From contig NW_017567002.1 of the NCBI RefSeq assembly GCF_001661265.1, positions 372,001 to 436,000 on the forward strand: a stretch of DNA of 64,000 nucleotides. Direction: 5' to 3'. Positions 9,892-21,312 of this stretch are shown piece after piece. The position numbers and the translations under genes are program-made. The stretch's first letter is position 1; every line of letters starts with the position of its first letter. The notes under the pieces were generated by a model. That model saw nothing but the letters and a program-made list of their open reading frames with translations, was not told the origin of the DNA and did not search any database. The stretch comes from Saitoella complicata NRRL Y-17804. Lineage: Eukaryota > Ascomycota > Saitoellomycetes > Saitoellales > Saitoellaceae.

Positions 9892-12816
9892 CTACCGCCT
9901 TTGCAATTCCCCTGCCCTCGAATCCGCCACAGCCTTCATCTTCAAAAACTGGTCTGGGGTATGTACTTCAATACCCTGCGTCCACTCTTGCTCGGTATCA
10001 TCTTTCACACTATGTAAAACGATGAACCTCCTGTACGTCTCGCACGACCAGACCTGATACAATCGTAAACTTGCCAATAAGCTTTGACAGATTGTTTCCC
10101 TCTCCTCAAGAAGCACAAACTCCACCACACGTTTTTTATCCAAAGCTTCCTTAATTGCAAGGATTGTAAGAAGAACGTCACCGAACTCCTTCCCAGCCTC
10201 GTCACTCTCGCCTGTCAATCCCTGATGGCAGAAAGCTTCAACCTCTGTTATGAGGCCTGGACACACCATCACATTCCATCCACCATATTCAGCATATCCC
10301 AACACGAACTCCACAATATTCGGACTGTTGATGATCATCTCTGACGTCATAACAATCACTCCACCATGGGGAAATATTGATGTAGCTTGATATTTGGCAT
10401 TTTTGGTGATATGGTCTCCGCCGTCGGTGATGATAAGGTCCAGTGCAAAAGCTGTACCGAAAAGATAAAACTGAGTTTGAGGCCGGGATTTGAGTGACGT
10501 GAGGTGCGGAAGTAGATGAAGCTGTGGCAGCAATAGGCGATGGATGAACACAAGTGTGGCGGCATTCAGATCATCGTGCGTATCAATCGCTCCCCGAGAT
10601 GATAAACAGTCCCGGAGCTCAACACCCTCTAAGGTTTCATCCGATGCGACCACACTGAACTTTTGTCTGGCCTTAATCAAGGGCAAATCCCACACTTTCT
10701 CAACTAGTTTTGTCCGATATGTTCCAGGCGCCTTTGACAACCTCACTTCCTGGTACCAAAAGGTTTCAACACTGCCTTTCTTGATAGGTGGATAAACAGC
10801 CATACGCAACCCACTCTTGGGAACTGGCATACTCCAAAGGCCAAAGGTGGTATGCAAAGGTTCTCCAGAGCCTGCAAATACCATCAGTGTTACTTCTGGG
10901 AGCAAAATCACACCCACACCACCCATTGCCAAGATGCTTTCCCTAAATTGAGCTCCTGCAGCAGCTTCCTCCTGGACGTAAACAAGATCCAGGATCGTGT
11001 CTGGAGGTTGTAAGGCACCCTTCTGGTGACCAAAAAACCGTGTAAGATGATAGAATGAGAGAAACTTGGTGACATGTAACGGCAGCGGATTATTTTCTTT
11101 CATACCTGATGGTCGTGCCTCAAGAAGCTCCTTGAGAATCCTCTTCTCTGTAGAGTACCTGCTGTAATGCAACTTGATCAATCCCACATCCCGGACTTGA
11201 GGGCCATAAGAAAGATTGTACACTGCCTCCTCACCGGTTTTCCCGTTTGCTGTCTTGAGAGGTTTGACCTGAGGACCAAGAGATAGGACTGCAACTTCTG
11301 GTTGTCCGGTTGGAGATGATGCCGTCTGTACAGCAGAACTAAGAGCTGAGGCTAGCGGCTGAGCAGCATGGATTTCAGCTTCCTTTGCTGCTTCCTTCAT
11401 GTCAGCCAAGAAAGACCCAATGGAAAACCCACTACTTGTCTTGGATGCCAGCACAGAAGCTGCGGTCTTTGTAGGTGCAGAAGACAACTTGGGCTTGCTG
11501 GCCGGTTCCACTGAAGCAAATGAATTAGCTGGAGCCTTAAGTGATGATTTGTTCGCTGCCTTTGATGATAACAGCTGAACTTCAACTGGCGCAGGAGGGG
11601 CTGCTAGCGGCTTTGAGATTGATGAAGGTGCCAAACCACCAACAGGTCCAGCTGCTTCAGCCGATGTGATTGAAGATTTTAGCAATGACTCATTCACCGG
11701 CTTCCCGGTGCGTAACGAGGTTATAGGAGCGGCCTGTTTCTTGGACATCGCTGATATCACATGCTGGCCAACGGATTTAGCAGAAACCACTGCAGGATCA
11801 GGAGCTTTTGAAGTAACAGACTGAGTTAACGGCTTCTTAAATACCTGCTGCACATTGGTAACCCGTCCAGATAAAGCAGCCCTTTGGGCTAATGATGTCA
11901 ATGCAGGGCGATTCATTGATGCAGCTGAAGTGGCCAGTGTGCTGAACAAAGACTTCTTTATGATCTTTGCATCAGGCGCCTGTGGCGGTGCTCCGGTGGC
12001 TACTCGTTTCTTCAATGACGACTCCAACTCCAATCCGCCAGCTGGCCCAGTTGAAGCAGCTGGAGCGTCAAGAGCCATGGATAAAGTCTTCTCCTTTGGT
12101 CTTGGTACAGGTAGCTGAGCTGTAGTAGCTACAGACTTCTTCGGTGCTGATGTCATTGTAGAACCTTTGGCCGGTTGAGCTTGAGCAAATGATGCTCTGG
12201 AGGAGATCTCATCCGTTGCCTTCAATGCTGATGGTTTAGCTGCGGGAGCTGCCAGCTTTTTTGACTTTGATGATGCTGTGGGAGGATTGACTGTTGCAGG
12301 TGGAGCAGCTGGAGGAGCAGGTGCTTTGTAGGCAGAAGTAGCTGGCTTCTTTGGCATCTTTAACTTTAATACCATTGAAGGGCGATCGGGCTCAACTGAC
12401 GCAGCTGGAGGTTCTGGCGTAGCATCCTCCTTCTCAGTCTCCACCGCCCATACGTACGGGTAAGTCTCAGGATGAGCGATGAGATCGGCTTCGTATCCCT
12501 TCTGCCACCTTTTCCAATCAAATTCGGGCTCGCCCTTCTTCTGCATCTCCTTCTTCTTCACCTTCCATGCCGCTAACGTGTCCGGCGGAATGTTGTTGCC
12601 TGGCTCCCATGTTGCTTGCCAATAAATCGGATAACCTTTCCATTCGACGAGGTAGTACCTAGCGAGATGATCGCGGTCGGTAGGCAATGCTTTACGTTCG
12701 CAAAGGATGCCGGCGATCTCGTATTCGTCATCTCCAAGTTGGGAGGAGGTCACGTCTTCGTCGCCTGAGGACAAGTCCTCTTGGGCTGAATGAAACAGAG
12801 GAGACGAATTGGCCAT
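9892..12816 (-). CDS. Chromodomain protein with Chp1-like layout
   Basis: This is a single-exon gene of 974 residues; the first ATG is at 12816. An N-terminal chromodomain (about residues 31-90) has the three aromatic cage positions expected of an H3K9-methyl reader: Y32 in DDEYEIAGIL, and W59 and Y62 in YYLVEWKGYP. A long Ala/Ser/Pro/Lys-rich disordered middle (about 160-560) contains many related short blocks around SLLKSS/SSLKAP. The C-terminal 400 residues are globular, with a segment like a SPOC beta-barrel (GGVGVILLPEVTLMVFAG) and then an alpha/beta region. Fission yeast Chp1, the chromodomain subunit of the RITS RNAi complex, has the same order and similar length. That match is architectural only, so the assignment is tentative. 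Confidence 0.75.
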   Translation of the reverse strand: MANSSPLFHSAQEDLSSGDEDVTSSQLGDDEYEIAGILCERKALPTDRDHLARYYLVEWKGYPIYWQATWEPGNNIPPDTLAAWKVKKKEMQKKGEPEFDWKRWQKGYEADLIAHPETYPYVWAVETEKEDATPEPPAASVEPDRPSMVLKLKMPKKPATSAYKAPAPPAAPPATVNPPTASSKSKKLAAPAAKPSALKATDEISSRASFAQAQPAKGSTMTSAPKKSVATTAQLPVPRPKEKTLSMALDAPAASTGPAGGLELESSLKKRVATGAPPQAPDAKIIKKSLFSTLATSAASMNRPALTSLAQRAALSGRVTNVQQVFKKPLTQSVTSKAPDPAVVSAKSVGQHVISAMSKKQAAPITSLRTGKPVNESLLKSSITSAEAAGPVGGLAPSSISKPLAAPPAPVEVQLLSSKAANKSSLKAPANSFASVEPASKPKLSSAPTKTAASVLASKTSSGFSIGSFLADMKEAAKEAEIHAAQPLASALSSAVQTASSPTGQPEVAVLSLGPQVKPLKTANGKTGEEAVYNLSYGPQVRDVGLIKLHYSRYSTEKRILKELLEARPSGMKENNPLPLHVTKFLSFYHLTRFFGHQKGALQPPDTILDLVYVQEEAAAGAQFRESILAMGGVGVILLPEVTLMVFAGSGEPLHTTFGLWSMPVPKSGLRMAVYPPIKKGSVETFWYQEVRLSKAPGTYRTKLVEKVWDLPLIKARQKFSVVASDETLEGVELRDCLSSRGAIDTHDDLNAATLVFIHRLLLPQLHLLPHLTSLKSRPQTQFYLFGTAFALDLIITDGGDHITKNAKYQATSIFPHGGVIVMTSEMIINSPNIVEFVLGYAEYGGWNVMVCPGLITEVEAFCHQGLTGESDEAGKEFGDVLLTILAIKEALDKKRVVEFVLLEERETICQSLLASLRLYQVWSCETYRRFIVLHSVKDDTEQEWTQGIEVHTPDQFLKMKAVADSRAGELQRR

Positions 12817-13181: not shown

Positions 13182-13992
13182 ATGGTACGCTCAATTGCTC
13201 CGTGCTTTGACGGTGCGCTGACATCTGTTCAGGCCAGCGAAGACGAATACGATTTCCTTTTCAAGGTTGTCCTCATTGGAGACTCCGGAGTCGGTAAATC
13301 CAACCTTCGTACGTGGCCCTGCCCCTTTGTTGCCTCCTCCTTCGGCCTTTGATACTGATCCATAGCGTACAGTCTCTCGTTTCACTCGCAACGAGTTCAA
13401 CCTTGACTCCAAGTCCACAATTGGTGTTGAGTTCGCTACCAGGTCAATTCAAGTCGACCAAAAAACAATCAAAGCCCAAATTTGGGATACCGCCGGTCAA
13501 GAACGCTACCGTGCCATTACCTCCGCCTACTACCGCGGTGCAGTCGGTGCACTCCTTACCTATGATATCTCCAAGCACATCACCTACGAGAACGTGACTC
13601 GCTGGTTGAAGGAGTTGAGAGACCATGCGGATTCGAATATTGTGATTATGTTGGTGGGAAACAAGAGTGATTTGAGGCATTTGAGGGCGGTGCCGACGGA
13701 GGAGGCGAAGGCTTTCGCGGCGGAGAATGGACTGAGTTTCATTGAGACGTCAGCATTGGATGCGAGCAACGTTGAGTTGGCATTCCAAAACATTCTGACA
13801 GGCGCGTGATTGCCAATGTTTCGTCGATGCAGACACTGACATTTACTCACAGAGATCTACCGTATCGTTTCATCCAAGGCACTTGACTCCGGAGGCGAAG
13901 GCGGTGTCCGTCCAGGCGCAGGAGAGACCATCAGCGTCACCCCTGCCCCTGGCGGCGACGAGAACAAGGTCGGTGGAGGCAAGTGCTGTTAG
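13182..13992 (+). CDS. Rab11-type small GTPase (Ypt31/32 homologue)
   Basis: Four exons (13182-13184, 13233-13308, 13373-13801, 13853-13992) encode 215 residues. Exon 1 codes for the initiator methionine alone. All GTPase motifs are intact: [18 protein letters not shown] and ETSA; the switch region [15 protein letters not shown] is Rab11-specific. The C-terminus GGKCC carries the double-cysteine geranylgeranylation site. Rab11/Ypt31 drives trans-Golgi and recycling-endosome exocytosis. Introns 1 and 2 are GT-AG. For intron 3 (13802-13852) the only join that keeps the conserved [15 protein letters not shown] frame uses a GC donor (CAG/GCGCGT) with an AG acceptor. Sequence identity to ascomycete Rab11 proteins appears high by recall. 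Confidence 0.95.
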
Positions 13993-19228: not shown

Positions 19229-21312
19229 ATGAGCTCGTCCCATGCGCCGTCAGAGGCGGATCGGAGGGGAAGGACGAACCAGTTCACAGACATTGGCGTG
19301 AAGGGACGGTATGTACAACGCGACAGCGCGGTGCAATCGCAACTGCTGACGAGTATTTAGTAAAACTGGATTGGTTGTCAAAGATACTGGGCGGCGTGAC
19401 TCCGCAGGTATGGAGGATATGAATGGATTCTTCTCCCCTGATCGGCCAGCAACACCCCAGGCTCCAAATTCATCCTTTACCAAACGCTTGCAAGATGCCG
19501 CGAACCTTACAAACAACAACACATCGGACATGTCTCTTGCGCAGTCTTCAATGCGCGAGCCTGCGACTATCGTTCGTGACGACAGACGCGTCTCGGCCTT
19601 TGCGGCACTGAGACGAACGCCAGCTCGCACTTCACTGAATTCTCCCGCGTTGCGCGTACGTTCGGCTGCCAAGGGCCAGTCGTCCCCTAAAAAGGACGTC
19701 AGCGCGTCTCCGTCTCGGTCATCAAGCGCCCACTCTGGATCAAACGTAAACGTTGCGCGGAAGATCGACTTCAACGAGGTGAAGACGCCTGCACGAAAGG
19801 AACGTACGTTCGAACCCGAACCTGTGGAGGAGGATTACCCTGAACCTCAAATGGGCGACGAGGTCTACGAAGATAATGAGCCCGTACGAGAGCCTGAGGT
19901 TGAGGCGGAGGCATCACCTGAACCAGCCCGTGCACCTTCCGCTACCAAGCCCAAGCCCAGGAAACAAACAGGACTGCTATCTCAAGGTGGAAAGAAGCGG
20001 AAGTTGTTTGCGATGACAAATGGCGGAGATGTTTCGGGTGACCTGGAAGCTCACGTTGGAGATGCCGTGAATGGAGCGGAGGAGGCAATGAGTGAGGACG
20101 AGCGGATGCCTGAACCTGAGGTTGAACCCGAGATGGACATGGAGCCCGAACCTGTCCAGGAAGCGTTTGACGAGGACGTGGAAGAAGCAGAACCGGAGCC
20201 GGCCCAGAAGAAAAGGGGAAGACCGCCCAAGGCAGTGGCAACTAAAGCAAAGGAGCAGGACGCACCGAAGAAGAAGGCGAAGGAAGTGCAACAGGTTGAG
20301 GAGTCTGAGAACGAGGAAGAAGAGGCACCAGCACCGGTCAAGAAGCGCGGACGACCGCCGAAAAATACAACGAAGGAAAAGGAGAACATCAGGCCCGCAA
20401 AGAAAACCAAGACCTCTGAGCCAGCACAGGCGAAGTCGAAGAAGCTCTCGAAGGGCGATGTTTCTCTGACGCAAGCAAAGCAGGTCATCATCCATGAGAA
20501 GCCTCCGGACCCGTCTGAGGACTTTTCCGAACTCGGCAGCGATGTGCGAAGAAGTAGACGAGCACGGGTGGCACCTCTTGCCTTCTGGAAGAACGAGAAG
20601 ATTGTCTACGGAGCGAGCGATCGTCGCAAGTCTAGCGGTCTTGTTCTGCCAGAGATGAAGGAAATTATCAGGGTTGAGGAGACGGCACCTGCAAAAACCA
20701 AGAAGCGGGCAGCTAATGGTACTGCACGGGGACGGAAGAGGAGTTTGAAGAGTGGAGACAGCAGCGACGAAGAAAGTGATGAAGACATCGAGGAAGAGGA
20801 TGGATTGATGGAGGCACAGGTTCTCGGATGGCAGGCCGATGGAGAGGATGAGACAGTCGTCAAGGGTATTTTCTCACTGTATTGTGCATGCAGAAATAGT
20901 TGCTAACATCGGTACAGTTATTGCCTGTCCTTCAACTCAGATCAAGCCAAAGGCGGTCGCCAACACATCTATGCGCTACCAAAAGATCTTCACTGTGAAC
21001 GACTTCGTCGCTACCGGTGTCGTTGACCTTCCACCGGGCGCCGAGAAGTTGCCGAGGTCATCAAAGCAGAACGTGATGATCTTCGCGGTGTTTGAGGGTG
21101 TGTTGGAGGTTAGGGTTCACGATACGACCTTCAAGGTCAAGAAGGGTGGTCAGTTCATTGTACCAAGAGGTAATAACTACAGCTTCAAGAACATCTCGGC
21201 AGCAAAGACTGCGAGGTTGTTCTTCACACATGCAACGGATACCTTGGCGAATGCCGAGGCAGAGGTTGAGGCGGAGGCTGCGGCTCGGGGTGCTGCGTCG
21301 GATGATGAGTGA
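19229..21312 (+). CDS. MIF2: Inner kinetochore protein CENP-C (Mif2/Cnp3)
   Basis: Three exons (19229-19308, 19361-20865, 20918-21312; introns 52 bases each) encode 659 residues. The N-terminal Mif2 block DIGVKGRKTGLVVKDTGRRD spans the first junction, and FFSPDRP follows. Two AT-hook motifs (KKRGRPPKAVATK near 310, KKRGRPPKNTTKE near 354) lie in a long acidic, Pro-rich middle. The CENP-C motif RRSRRARVAPLAFWKNEKIV (near 421-440) should bind the CENP-A nucleosome. The C-terminal cupin (about 529-659), with MIFAVFEGVLEVRVHDT and GGQFIVPRGNNYSFKN, mediates dimerisation. The exon 2-3 join restores VVKVIACPSTQ. All features match fungal Mif2, and its length is in the family range. Confidence 0.95.

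Follow-up and report, generated by a model that had tools for sequence, protein, structure and literature searches.

RITS serves as the model for RNAi-guided heterochromatin, in which Chp1 ties small-RNA silencing to marked chromatin. The question raised by the present locus is whether a Chp1 with such a role exists in Saitoella complicata, outside the genus Schizosaccharomyces. An earlier note had seen in one of its reading frames a Chp1-like chromodomain protein and a candidate reader of RNAi-directed heterochromatin; no paper that treats Taphrinomycotina and Chp1 together was found among the open-licence literature in PMC. As far as can be judged from sequence, the 974-residue protein is a Chp1 homologue and very likely the orthologue, and a probability of roughly 0.82 is assigned to the reading in which the orthologue of Schizosaccharomyces pombe Chp1 tethers a RITS-type complex to chromatin as its scaffold. 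The gene is a new member of the known Chp1 family, of which other fungal members have probably been deposited, because Pfam already has a family for this type of PIN domain.

The gene occupies the frame that the earlier note had assigned to it, on the minus strand of the window, which is the whole stretch of 64,000 nucleotides that was analysed (GC content 0.532). The surrounding open frame comprises 1017 codons, and the 43 codons that precede the gene in frame hold no methionine, so that its ATG is the first. Its GC3 is 0.46, compared with 0.57–0.66 in five other open reading frames of the window. A search of the genome (14.12 Mb in 34 contigs) at E ≤ 0.01 returned only the self-match and no second copy, and the protein was without a match in a plasmid collection, as expected for a fungus. 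The gene, its parts in the order of the protein, and its upstream neighbour are located as follows.

9892..12816, minus strand: Chp1-like gene, 974 amino acids, a single frame without introns from ATG to stop
12577..12723, minus strand: chromodomain, residues 32–80 (PF00385; cage Y32/W59/Y62; aligned with five more chromodomains from this genome)
12526..12576, minus strand: Lys-rich stretch after the chromodomain, residues 81–97 (from the sequence)
11227..12486, minus strand: low-complexity linker, residues 111–530 (by composition; presumably disordered)
10717..11196, minus strand: putative SPOC region, residues 541–700 (only its end aligns with Chp1, from residue 628)
10402..10716, minus strand: region matching Chp1 domain II, residues 701–805, limits approximate (within the alignment with 3tix_B)
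9946..10365, minus strand: Chp1-like PIN domain, residues 818–957 (PF21484, 41.9 bits, cut-off 27)
13182..13992, plus strand: Rab11/Ypt3-type GTPase gene with introns (phmmer of an exon piece; limits by eye)

The main evidence for homology comes from the C-terminal body of the protein. When its last 439 residues were compared with the PDB, the best match was chain 3tix_B (E = 5.6e-10), which we take to be S. pombe Chp1, in agreement with PMC7532188; the sole other match up to E = 10 had an E-value of 0.21. The whole protein aligns with the same chain over residues 628–958 (E = 2.1e-9), and a further 20 matches up to E = 1 have higher E-values (best E = 0.016), all but one being named chromodomain or HP1-type proteins or chromodomain-carrying methyltransferases. 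A Smith–Waterman alignment with 348 residues of Chp1 contains 81 identities among 309 aligned positions and has a score of 162, which was reached by none of 500 shuffles (mean 34.9, maximum 56) and compares with 33 for the reversed sequence. Most of this signal resides in the PIN segment (score 131, shuffle maximum 49, z 21.7, 0 of 500 shuffles), whereas residues 560–805 alone score 61 (shuffle maximum 55), the domain II segment 43 (z 4.2, reached by one of 500 shuffles), and the SPOC tail 40 (reached by two). The Pfam family Chp1-like_PIN (PF21484) rises to 46.2 bits when residues 770–974 are scanned alone, and nothing in the genome matches it except the Chp1-like gene. These results show a C-terminal PIN domain of the Chp1 type; the outcome that the earlier note had named as speaking against its proposal, a C-terminal fold unrelated to SPOC and PIN, did not occur, the region being homologous to the crystallized fragment of Chp1 with its PIN domain included.

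Residues 535–700 alone matched neither the Chp1 chain nor any Pfam family, and the first part of the SPOC region cannot be aligned with that of S. pombe by sequence; the presence of a SPOC domain is suggested by its position in the chain and by the continuation of the alignment into its end. Two single-sequence AlphaFold models had mean pLDDT values of 37.2 and 35.3, both under 40 and too low for the models to be used. Fold searches with the first model are accordingly uninformative: Foldseek returned no match at E ≤ 0.001 (3tix_B ranked eighth, at E = 0.20), and 3tix was absent from the 50 entries listed by VIA-align.

PIN nucleases usually carry an Asp at the first catalytic position. In the alignment with 3tix_B, this position is occupied by Met823 in the Saitoella protein and by Val in Chp1, and because both residues replace the usual Asp, nuclease action is unlikely in either protein. 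The PIN domain is therefore probably not a nuclease, here as in Chp1.

At the N-terminus, the Chromo family (PF00385, cut-off 25.1 bits) matches residues 1–100 with 27.4 bits when they are scanned alone and the gene with 27.6 bits in the genome search, but falls to 22.5 bits on the whole protein. An N-terminal chromodomain with an aromatic cage for methylated H3K9 is thus indicated, with the caveat that the cut-off is passed only outside the whole-protein scan. The cage is complete, with Y32, W59, and Y62 where the earlier note had placed them, which together with the homology suggests that the domain reads H3K9me. The loops seem to differ: compared with Chp1, the first loop appears longer and the second reads I-Y-W-Q-A, with the residues corresponding to D51 and N52 apparently missing, and contact with the nucleosome core may therefore differ from that of Chp1. 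In S. pombe, two chromodomain loops bind the nucleosome core, as the available text of PMC4849473 reports on the basis of mutations in R31, N33, and N35 of one loop and W49, Y50, D51, and N52 of the other; the same source proposes that RNA is bound by the helix that closes the chromodomain of Chp1, and in the Saitoella protein the stretch that follows the chromodomain (residues 81–97) is Lys-rich.

The chromodomain and the C-terminal body are joined by a long low-complexity linker, as in Chp1. It spans about 420 residues and is rich in Ala, Ser, Pro, and Lys, a composition that sets it apart from its counterpart in S. pombe. Between residues 151 and 500, each of the seven 50-residue blocks consists of Pro, Ala, Ser, and Lys to 42–80%; in the ten blocks past residue 500 the share is 12–32%. 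The disordered linker of 400 residues described in the earlier note is borne out in its low complexity but not in its repeated blocks, since the words quoted as examples each occur at a single place (SLLKSS at 377–382, SSLKAP at 424–429). Composition-preserving shuffles do not support a repeated-block region: the number of repeated 3-, 4-, and 5-mers in residues 111–530 was matched by 94, 2, and 86 of 500 shuffles, respectively, which amounts at most to a weak excess of 4-mers. The order of chromodomain, linker, and C-terminal body with PIN domain is that of S. pombe Chp1, as had been claimed, and the length is similar (974 versus about 960 residues).

Upstream of the Chp1-like gene lies a divergent gene for a Rab11-type GTPase, arranged head to head, with 365 bp between the two start codons as determined by eye. 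Its exon piece at 13378–13797 (140 residues) has Rab11A as the best match by phmmer (E = 2e-80), with yeast Ypt31 at 2.2e-63; the gene is a neighbour and stands outside the complex. The Rab11 of S. pombe is ypt3 (SPAC18G6.03), which presumably lies on the opposite strand beside chp1. If this position is right, the same divergent pair is found in both yeasts, and its conservation favours orthology. The available text of PMC5990653 lists chp1 as SPAC18G6.02c; no statement in support of a chp1–ypt3 pairing in S. pombe was found in the literature searched, and a collinearity study names neither gene in its available text (PMC8537764). The window also encodes a CENP-C/Mif2-like protein (19410–20906, plus strand; PF15624, E = 5.2e-12), some 6.6 kb away from the Chp1-like gene.

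The genome contains genes for both RNAi and H3K9 methylation, contrary to the second outcome that would have spoken against the proposal, an absence of the whole RNAi machinery. They include the Argonaute, the Clr4-type methyltransferase, and the Dicer with two RNase III domains for which the earlier note had suggested a search. The searches were run exon by exon and by family, and they show the presence of the genes rather than complete gene models. Piwi domains occur in two genes (L010 on contig C1 and L025 on contig C5), each of which also has PAZ, Mid, and linker domains; the Argonaute N domain exceeds its cut-off in the C1 copy only. Stop codons inside the Piwi matches, one in the C5 piece and five in the first C1 piece, are taken as introns. 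The C5 copy, the sole one compared with the PDB, has its best relatives there among Argonaute entries, and slicer motifs are legible at both loci. An Argonaute, as a RITS complex requires, is present in the genome. S. pombe, by contrast, presumably has a single Argonaute.

RdRP and Arb1 are represented by one match each, and RNase III by six, two of which share a single frame with a Dicer dimerisation domain. Chromo, Pre-SET, and SET domains share one frame of the Clr4 type, for which Clr4 entries are the best in the PDB: E is 3.7e-72 for the Clr4 entry 1mvh (“Cryptic loci regulator 4”), as against 3.5e-46 for DIM-5. The chromo shadow domain characteristic of HP1 has one match, and Stc1 is represented by one of two candidates, whose PDB relative (E = 4.4e-4) is 2luy, which we take to be S. 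pombe Stc1. Genes for Clr4, Stc1, and HP1, which link RITS to H3K9 methylation, are present in the genome.

The homology, the domain order, and the presence of partner genes make it likely that in this Taphrinomycotina yeast the protein reads H3K9me and forms the scaffold of a RITS-type complex, with binding, complex formation, and function as in S. pombe. Its chromodomain would bind H3K9-methylated tails, while the long and flexible linker would allow the C-terminal body to reach out; a Tas3-type partner, with Argonaute attached, could then dock on the SPOC–DomII–PIN body. Argonaute loaded with small RNA would locate nascent transcripts, Stc1 would recruit the Clr4 methyltransferase, and the resulting methylation would attract more of the Chp1-like protein, closing a feedback loop like that of S. 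pombe.

A different function would be expected if the Chp1 homologue of this lineage had lost Argonaute and Tas3 and persisted as an RNAi-independent H3K9me reader, a scaffold akin to that of HUSH. The core-binding loop residues, seemingly not conserved in the alignment with Chp1, would agree with such a change, and there is a precedent in animals: the available text of PMC7532188 describes TASOR, MPP8, and Periphilin as subunits of HUSH, with TASOR sharing the SPOC–DomII–PIN body and an H3K9me-reading chromodomain in the same complex. In HUSH, however, the chromodomain is located on a separate chain, MPP8, and TASOR carries a pseudo-PARP domain (PMC7532188), whereas the Saitoella protein has chromodomain and PIN on one chain, as does Chp1. 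The pseudo-PARP family DUF3715 is not among the Pfam matches of the Chp1-like protein up to E = 1 and was not matched in the genome (0 of 1), in a search that gave no match in the 14 controls either. Since two Argonaute genes, RdRP, Dicer, Arb1, and Stc1 are all present, a loss of the RNAi connection is rather improbable.

It is far harder to believe that an unrelated chromodomain protein, for instance one derived from a retroelement, resembles Chp1 by chance. Two other chromodomain matches in the genome (L004 and L005) do lie in frames that are Ty3/gypsy-like by eye, but the match to Chp1 contradicts this origin for the present gene: no shuffle reaches the C-terminal score, PF21484 exceeds its cut-off, there is only one copy at E ≤ 0.01, and of the protein's Pfam matches with E up to 1, three in number, none is a retroelement domain.

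Read as the orthologue of Chp1, the protein apparently extends the family beyond Schizosaccharomyces and provides a second point from which the essential parts of RITS (PIN, SPOC, and cage) can be told from those that drift (core-binding loops and linker). A comparison of the pathway outside fission yeast is probably possible, with several other parts encoded in the same genome. The gene also bears on a possible common origin of RITS and HUSH (PMC7532188). Chp1 and Tas3 are reported to be absent from four species of Mucor in which Stc1 and Clr4 are retained together with the CLRC subunits Rik1, Cul4, and Raf1 (PMC12863538, available text). A broader scenario can be put forward only tentatively, at somewhat less than even odds: the full RITS–Stc1–CLRC feedback loop would go back to the ancestor shared by Schizosaccharomyces and the Saitoella lineage and be kept in the latter alongside Ty3/gypsy-like possible targets and an unusual chromodomain-bearing TFIIIC subunit as possible reader of heterochromatin boundaries, and RITS and animal HUSH would both have branched off from an ancient silencing system that combines a SPOC–DomII–PIN body with a chromodomain.

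The Chromo family is matched by 10 of 11 candidates in the genome. Besides the Chp1-like gene, they comprise Chd1, the Clr4-type gene, a chromodomain–TPR protein, two Ty3/gypsy-like and two eEF3-like frames, one unknown, and a short piece on contig C8 that lies close to the sole chromo shadow match; the names Chd1, eEF3-like, and gypsy-like are assumed from the character of the sequences. In the Ty3/gypsy-like frames L004 (C19) and L005 (C5), one of which has an internal stop, the chromodomain follows an integrase-like part, as judged by eye; these elements are possible targets of the silencing system. The chromodomain–TPR protein on contig C20 (L026, also L003; 551–3256, minus strand) has the TFIIIC subunit tau131/Tfc4 and a chromodomain in one frame of 901 residues; the chromodomain scores 45.9 bits with PF00385, and its cage looks complete by eye. 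The protein matches tau131 in the PDB over residues 107–401 of the 602 compared (E = 8.8e-38), and elsewhere in the genome it matches only the chromodomain of Clr4 (5.3e-4). TFIIIC sites presumably bound heterochromatin in S. pombe, and a TFIIIC able to read H3K9me would be striking. Another chromodomain protein (L006/L027, contig C28) is without other Pfam domains up to E = 0.001 in the 604 residues scanned. The two frames assumed to be eEF3-like (L007 on C4 and L008 on C12) each match the Chromo family and possibly represent an eEF3 duplicate.
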